NCBI GenBank assembly: GCA_947444925.1
Contig: CANFBW010000030.1
Coordinates: 1 to 38,012, forward strand
Reading direction: 5' to 3'
Origin: Flavobacteriales bacterium
Lineage (GTDB): Bacteria; Bacteroidota; Bacteroidia; Flavobacteriales_C; GCA-002722245
DNA length: 38,012 bases
Each line of letters opens with the position of its first letter. The stretch's first letter is position 1. Of the stretch, positions 264 to 1,131 are shown in pieces. The translations under genes and the position numbers were made by a program. The notes beneath the pieces were generated by a model that was not told where the DNA came from, searched no databases, and saw only the letters and a list, made by a program, of their open reading frames with translations.

Positions 264-596
264 AAAAGATAAAACCACTTGTAAAAAAACCTTTCTGAAG
301 CATTGCGAGATAAAAGACAACACCCTCGATGATAAAAATGGATTAAAAAATTCAAACAAAATCCTGCTGGATAGCAAAGCGACCACGACAAAAACCAAGA
401 TCCATTCTCTACTTTGTATTTTATACTGGCAAGAATTTGTGCTACTACACTATCGTTACTGCTAAATTATTTTTCAAGGGAGCTTAGGTACCGCACTATT
501 TTAGTCATTCCGCTTGCATGTGACGCATGCACGTTCAATAGAATCAACTGTAACGATTATCCGCAATTGTACCCGTTGTGTTACCGCAAGTGACGA

Positions 597-692
597 TAGA
601 TACTTCGCAGTACCTCAGGAAGACAAATGTGACCGATTCCCAAAAAGTTGCGTTGAATATGCTTGTCTTCCTGAGGTACTCCGAAGGATCTA
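597..692. repeat. REP-like long inverted repeat (two 30-nt arms)
   Basis: The arms at 597-626 and 663-692 are inverted copies with 28 of 30 positions complementary; 17 consecutive central pairs are perfect. The loop is 36 nt. Weaker complementarity continues outward (about 555-571 with 709-724, around TCCGCAAT/ATTGCGGA), giving a palindromic unit of roughly 170 bp. Read rightward, the right arm runs TTGTCTTCCTGAGG and ends CGAAGGATCTA. From memory this resembles the dispersed palindrome GTCATYCTGAG...GAAGRATCT seen in many bacterial genomes. The layout of two inverted REP units fits a REPIN or a small non-autonomous mobile element. No transposase is present in the window. Confidence 0.7.
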
Positions 693-770
693 CCACCTTA
701 AAATTACGATTGCGGAAAATCAGTCGGCTTTTAAATCGCAATTAAAAGGGATAGATAAAAACAAAAAAAA

Positions 771-790
771 GGGCAGTAAAATTACTGCCC
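771..790 (-). terminator. intrinsic terminator of the rpoBC-DUF3467 operon
   Basis: GGGCAGTA and TACTGCCC form an 8-bp stem with a 4-nt loop. On the minus strand it is followed by a run of eight T (plus-strand A at 763-770). It lies 23 nt past the stop of the DUF3467 gene, so it ends the long leftward operon. The plus strand also has five T after the stem, so it could stop rightward transcription too. Confidence 0.85.
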
Positions 791-813
791 TTTTTCATTC
801 AAATTGTATTTGC

Positions 814-1131
814 TTAAGCCTGCGCTGTTGGTCCACCAAAATTTAGAGGAAGATTAATAGCTCCTTCTACGTCTTTGATGCTTCCATTCACAGATTCAAA
901 CTTGGCAATATTATCAGCCAAAGCCTTCATCAATCTCTTAGCATGTTGAGGCGTCATTATCACTCTACTTTTCACTTTCGCTTTAGGCACACCAGGCATA
1001 ACTCTGATGAAATCCATCACAAATTCAGAAGTAGAATGCGTAATGATAGCAAGGTTAGAGTACTCACCTTCGGCGATTTGCTCATTCAGTTCAATATTCA
1101 ACTGATTTTGGTTATTGCTATCCTCTGCCAT
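814..1131 (-). CDS. DUF3467 family protein
   Basis: This is a 105-residue protein of the DUF3467 family, whose molecular function is unknown. An acidic N-terminal segment is followed by a compact domain containing a VMDFIRVMPGVPKAKV segment and, near residues 60-80, TPQHAKRLMKALADNI, both typical of the family. There is no signal peptide or membrane segment, so it is likely cytosolic. It starts 9 nt after rpoC ends and is the last gene before the terminator at 771-790. It is therefore almost certainly co-transcribed with RNA polymerase, as commonly seen in Bacteroidota. The position suggests a link to transcription, but this is inference from context only. Confidence 0.85.
   Translation of the reverse strand: MAEDSNNQNQLNIELNEQIAEGEYSNLAIITHSTSEFVMDFIRVMPGVPKAKVKSRVIMTPQHAKRLMKALADNIAKFESVNGSIKDVEGAINLPLNFGGPTAQA

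Follow-up and report, generated by a model that had tools for sequence, protein, structure and literature searches.

A palindrome behind the rpoBC gene row as the very probable interior of an old, non-autonomous IS1595-type element

The palindrome and its surroundings

The window (the whole stretch of 38,012 nucleotides that was analysed) carries a palindrome past the 3' end of the L10-L7/L12-rpoB-rpoC-DUF3467 gene row, after the terminator-like hairpin of that row (Table 1). A repeat search of the window placed the arms at 597–626 and 663–692; they are 30 nt long, match at 28/30 positions (93% complementarity) and enclose a 36-nt loop. As DNA, the 183-bp stretch around them has a folding energy of -37.4 kcal/mol (z = -6.7); as RNA, the value is -70 kcal/mol (z = -8.3). 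Neither was equalled by any of 200 dinucleotide shuffles. The palindrome described in an earlier note on this DNA, with the same arms and loop, is thus real, its fold being well beyond that of shuffled sequence. The weaker outer pairing reported there also exists, but it belongs to a separate, family-wide terminal inverted repeat (TIR) and is no decayed extension of the core: what had been read as decayed outer arms are the ends of a non-autonomous element (MITE). The unit is also larger than noted, measuring about 171 bp here and about 213 bp in most copies.

Table 1. Features at and beside the palindrome in the window.
Feature	Position	Strand	Basis or remark
Whole MITE copy, short form of both arms	553..723		paired TIRs, about 171 bp
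Left TIR ACGATTATCCGCAATTGTACC	553..573	+	1 mismatch to common TIR (20-base motif)
Left REP-like arm of core dimer, short-form centre	597..626	+	repeat search
Loop separating the two REP-like units, 36 nt	627..662	+	repeat search
Right REP-like arm TTGTCTTCCTGAGGTACTCCGAAGGATCTA	663..692	+	repeat search, motif matches
Right TIR, degenerate, reverse complement CTGATTTTCCGCAATCGTAAT	703..723	-	4 mismatches over 20 bases
Terminator-like hairpin of rpoB-rpoC-DUF3467 row, outside MITE	766..795		14-nt perfect arms, 2-nt loop
DUF3467 gene, 3' end towards MITE	814..1131	-	PF11950, 5.6e-32

With 169 bp over its 20-base TIRs, the window copy is the shortest paired copy, because both of its arms carry the short centre. 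Its right TIR reached a local score of 14/21, compared with a background (95th percentile 9, 99th percentile 15) that was taken from loci themselves containing MITEs. No target duplication is visible at this copy, where the flanks match at 5/8 positions. Together with the degenerate right TIR and the position behind the terminator of the rpoBC row, the missing duplication indicates that the window copy is probably old.

A strong fold 3' of the rpoBC row could also be that of a fixed regulatory RNA or of a terminator of this row. Such an origin is extremely improbable and is contradicted by several results: the copies are dispersed over the genome, Rfam at gathering scores gave no family at the palindrome (the matches in the window were five tRNAs only), and by eye no such element was seen in the gap beside DUF3467 in the sister genomes G002, G003 and G004 (G001 gave no DUF3467 match). 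A single copy conserved in relatives, which the earlier note had named as the sign of a fixed RNA, was accordingly absent. A secondary effect of the palindrome on transcripts is possible. Hairpins resembling the one at the end of the gene row were also seen after DUF3467 in G002 and G004, and in G004 the gap is filled with GTCATTGCGAG-type repeats (both by eye).

The repeat family in the host genome

G000, the genome to which the window belongs (3.24 Mb, 123 contigs), was searched with the palindrome, yielding 92 BLAST matches at E<=10, many of which count a single element twice, by its two arms or in both orientations. The exact pattern CCTGAG(N4-14)GAAGGATCT gave 28 matches, with 0 for the reversed-pattern control, which bears out the earlier suggestion of a dispersed mobile repeat. 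In the copies retrieved, conservation runs far outside the core and terminates in ATGATTATCCGCAATTGTACC and its complement, the 21-bp TIR of the family. The TIR was found at 54 places at <=3 mismatches (reversed control 0), and pairing of facing ends gave 26 elements of 169–212 bp, mostly 210–212 bp (from 27 rows, after exclusion of an alternative longer pairing at L019). None of these small elements carries a transposase gene. MITEs in general do not exceed a few hundred bp.

The 26 paired copies were then compared for duplications of 8 bp in their flanks. All eight positions matched in 15/26 copies and at least seven in 22/26, as against a mean of 0.043 (maximum 1 in 2000) and 1.34 (maximum 5), respectively, for the swapped-flank control. 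Both arms of the dimer are present in 25/26 copies and one arm in the remaining copy (L056). In 23/26, one arm has a short centre and the other a centre of 37–38 nt; in two (the window copy and L006) both centres are short, and L056 is readable on one side only. Among 37 recognised dimers in G000, the inner span is 61–64 nt, and 33/37 are bordered on one or both sides by a TIR (score >=10), with no recognisable TIR beside the dimers at L017, L025, L032 and L055. This count is based on 40 loci, representing part of the BLAST matches, of which L031, L039 and L052 failed the regular expression, and duplicates were merged. The interiors of the 26 elements fold with a median z of -4.5 (range -11.7 to -0.5), so at least one copy in this genome folds weakly.

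With simple ORF calls (ORFs of >=120 aa), the distance to an ORF 3' end is <=20 bp for 12/26 paired copies, and 9/26 lie between convergent ORFs; no copy lies <=20 bp from a 5' end or is spanned by an ORF of this size. The longer centre, a 37–38-bp module (ATTTGAGATTAAGAGGAGAAACGAAGTTTCGGTCTTT) that in 23/26 paired copies (e.g. L014 and L022) replaces one of the two short centres, also occurs in other contexts in G002 (L320, L324, L327) and G004 (L321). Its 24-base heart gave 60 matches in G000 at <=3 mismatches (control 0). The module looks like a third nested repeat.

The earlier note had suggested that the palindrome may be a REPIN. A REPIN consists of two inverted REP units copied by a RAYT (a Y1 HUH transposase) through single-stranded DNA. 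The core indeed holds a REP-like unit twice, in inverted arrangement, dimers without target duplications stand alone in sister species (see below), and G000 has Y1_Tnp genes at 4 places, 3 of them above the Pfam cut-off (L059, L060 and L061); a copy of the 24-base module heart with 3 mismatches lies about 0.9 kb from the Y1_Tnp gene on contig C59. The unit in G000 has moved, however, with 21-bp TIRs and 8-bp duplications. DDE-type ends of this kind, with target duplications, are not expected of Y1 transposition or of REPINs. Moreover, a search with one regular expression found no core in the retrieved flanks (up to about 1.5 kb) of the 4 Y1_Tnp places, and the palindromes close to 3 of these places are unrelated (18 nt long at L059). 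Movement by a RAYT is thus contradicted for the copies in G000 and highly unlikely as an explanation of the window palindrome; it is possible for the standalone dimers of G001 and G003.

Matching ends and dimers in other genomes

To follow the ends, a survey of 295 genomes was made with the end motif at <=2 mismatches. It was found in 15 genomes, including G000, and the reversed control gave matches in 2 genomes, once each, so that single matches mean little. In the congeneric genome G004, an apparently intact insertion sequence (IS) of 1002 bp (C92:229305-230306) carries the 20-bp motif at either end, each time with 1 mismatch. It encodes a 308-aa IS1595-family transposase (NF033547, 5.9e-60; PF12762, 2.2e-24) and is flanked by the duplication ATTAGTTA (8/8, a raw flank comparison without swapped-flank control, as are all flank readings given below for ISs and for MITEs of other genomes). 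By eye, the sequence common to this IS and the MITE is limited to about 22 bp at either end. The TIR probably differs from the usual ends of the IS1595 family. A transposase 65% identical to that of G004 is encoded in G176 by an element with an 8/8 duplication, whose ends are 5 and 6 mismatches away, and an IS1595-like element on contig C9 of G005 has a 7/8 duplication. At further IS1595-like elements with roughly similar ends (G005 L243, G069 L256 and L263, G176 L250, G194 L251), no 8-bp duplication was found, the flanks matching at 3/8 to 5/8 positions.

In G000, remnants of such an element were detected on contigs C73 (74 bp, 90.5% identical to the IS end, TIR included) and C15 (349 bp, 73%, with a stop-riddled piece of transposase). 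The 123-contig assembly yielded no intact IS1595 transposase, and no autonomous element was found at its unpaired TIRs. Five of the latter were read: L144 and L145 adjoin the dimer, whole or in part, L146 is the end of an IS1595 element and L147 adjoins nothing recognisable. The fifth, L148 (around position 3614 of contig C79), adjoins a GTCATTGCGAGG repeat that by eye resembles the interior of the G004 element L318 (see below), so a second type of cargo may also be present in G000. A weak IS1595 transposase match (25% identity) was noted at C13:7438-7788 (L258), within a 654-aa frame; similar frames exist in G002 (640 aa) and G004 (623 aa).

Presence or absence in sister species was tested for two G000 copies, L008 and L042, and both are missing from the matching sites. 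At L008, the neighbouring genes are 36 bp apart in G003 and 267 bp apart in G000; G001, G002 and G004 are uninformative, because the two genes are not adjacent there. At L042, the site is shorter by about 230 bp in G002 and G004, and G001 and G003 gave no flank pair. Neither TIR nor arm was found in the three unfilled gaps (best TIR 8–9/21, best arm 7–10/29), compared with a TIR score of 15 and arm scores of 25–29 at the filled sites in G000.

Ends of this or a similar kind also delimit MITEs whose interiors are unrelated, in other genera too, and in several of them one end is a loose match (up to 8/20 mismatches). In G001, a CCTCATCC...TTCTCC palindrome lies inside these ends with 8/8 duplications (L299-L302; only 5/8 at L304), and in G004 a CGTCATTGCGA dimer does so (L318, 8/8). 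Three species of this genus (G000, G001 and G004) thus have these ends around three different palindromes. Similar ends around other interiors, all with 8/8 duplications, were found in G176 (L308, L309, L311) and G250 (L316, L317, L226, L240). In G001, the interiors of 4 elements fold with z between -4.0 and -7.7, and in G004 that of 1 element with z = -7.4, as against -1.3 to -2.9 in G176 (3 elements) and -0.2 to -2.5 in G250 (3 elements). On this evidence, palindromic cargo is not a general rule, since interior folding is weak to absent in the latter two genomes.

Retrieval via the core instead of the TIR yielded 31 standalone dimers of the same REP-like unit in the sister genomes (14 each in G001 and G003, 1 in G002 and 2 in G004), with a size of about 100–138 bp overall and mostly 100–117 bp. 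None of the 31 has a TIR, none has an exact 8-bp flank duplication, and no duplication length from 3 to 12 exceeded the swapped control. These standalone dimers, together with the 33/37 dimers of G000 that have a TIR, show that the dimer can exist apart from the MITE and that in G000 it rides in it; we infer that it predates its carriage there. A further dimer, outside this sample and retrieved via the TIR (L238 in G001), lies beside a TIR and within a different kind of MITE, in which one TIR was recognised by eye. This nesting suggests how capture can start.

It could be asked whether the REP-like dimer inserts itself into palindromic or looped DNA, with IS1595 MITEs as a favoured target and TIRs that do not move the dimer. 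The nesting at L238 agrees with this proposal, as do REP dimers within palindromes in other genomes, reported in the accessible part of PMC3733652, and the TIRs at L148 and L147, which enclose another repeat and nothing recognisable, respectively, and demonstrate that TIRs without this dimer exist. The proposal is nevertheless very unlikely to explain the family in G000, where the dimer is nearly constant in both its arms and its inner span and where the duplications flank the TIRs, meaning that the whole unit moved after capture. Self-insertion of the dimer may well explain the first capture.

Outside the sister genomes, an exact 22-mer of the core, CCTGAGGTACTCCGAAGGATCT, was recovered in 51 stretches, chiefly from Phycisphaerae, with Doudnabacteria (2), Paceibacterota (1) and Micropepsaceae (1) among the named genomes. 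The core does resemble the GTCATYCTGAG...GAAGRATCT palindromes, as the earlier note had stated. The copies of the 22-mer are often dimers with GTCAT outward, opposite to the window (by eye). Many short CCTGAGGTACTCCGAAGGATCT dimers of this opposite orientation were seen in the Phycisphaerae genome JAICTV01 (L093, L099 and others).

A probable IS1595-type element with a REP-like passenger

The combination of 21-bp TIRs and 8-bp duplications indicates a DDE transposase, and the same ends recur at an IS1595 element. The window palindrome is therefore very probably the interior of an old, non-autonomous IS1595-type element with a REP-like dimer inside, rather than a RAYT-moved REPIN. In this lineage, a REP-like dimer would have entered an IS1595 MITE, which would then have been amplified in trans by an IS1595 transposase that cut at the TIRs and inserted the element at 8-bp staggered sites. 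In this way, REP-like dimers appear to travel and spread as the cargo of a DDE insertion sequence.

The family shares with members of the IS1595 family (ISApl4, IS1016 subgroup), as described in the available portion of PMC12561309, an IS1595/ISXO2-type DDE transposase, TIRs and A/T-rich duplications of 8 bp; the A/T-rich 8-bp duplications seen here fit those reported for ISApl4 there. Unlike IS1595-family ISs, the present copies are geneless and have a REP-like dimer in their interior. The nearest published precedent found is QMITE2 of Coxiella burnetii (extracts of PMC5896051), a MITE of 150–190 bp with TIRs, target duplications and a REP inside, whose shorter copies resemble plain REPs. The likeness is one of description, the ends not having been aligned, and QMITE2 differs in its GTAG-type REP and its duplications of 7–11 nt. 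By eye, no GTAG tag was seen at the present REP-like units.

Similarities also exist to the CGTC-tagged REPs (Di Nocera 2013, PMC3733652, in the part at hand), which have CGTC or TGTC at one end and a stem mostly starting with AT, form dimers and occur in several phyla including Bacteroidetes. For assignment to this type, a CGTC or TGTC tag beside a stem starting with a paired AT, a stem of 8–9 bp and a loop of 4–5 nt were considered. The core fits only in part: by eye, the window arm has TGTC followed by TTCCT (TGTC followed by ATCCT in the units of the sister species), and the stem comprises 5 bp plus a short inner stem, the long-form arms having the 37–38-nt centre. The stem is thus shorter and the loop longer than in CGTC REPs (by eye), and the dimer of G000, unlike these, lies inside a MITE. 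The range of CCTGAGGTACTCCGAAGGATCT across phyla fits the wide spread of CGTC-type REPs, as far as covered by the same portion of PMC3733652. With REPINs and RAYTs, the family shares two inverted REP-like units around a loop; it is set apart from them by its TIRs and target duplications, and no RAYT was found beside the repeat. Of a RAYT/TnpA-like gene, which the earlier note had considered possible elsewhere in the genome, the candidates found were the 4 Y1_Tnp places, none of them with the core in its retrieved flanks.

A limited search of the open literature, including the accessible parts of PMC3733652, PMC10969869, PMC9769881, PMC12561309 and PMC5896051, gave no account of a CGTC-like REP carried by an IS1595 MITE. 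As a word, IS1595 is absent from the available text of a MITE review (PMC10969869) and of a paper on Cardinium MITEs (PMC9769881). The letters of the motif led, among the matches listed, to subjects that were unrelated by title.

According to the sections of PMC3733652 at hand, CGTC REPs occur in several phyla and have no dedicated transposase, and other transposases as their movers were left open. Tentatively, IS1595-type transposases might be a general vehicle for REP-like palindromes of the CGTC type and others that cross phyla without a transposase of their own, the cargo being multiplied in MITEs and lone dimers being left after decay of the ends; at this breadth, the proposal is rather doubtful. 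In the present family, a DDE element carries a REP-like dimer of CGTC look as its passenger; ends and duplications were found, as were a likely parent IS and sites that lack the element. The finding offers a concrete and testable way in which orphan REPs could spread, and it warns that a REPIN reading can conceal a MITE.
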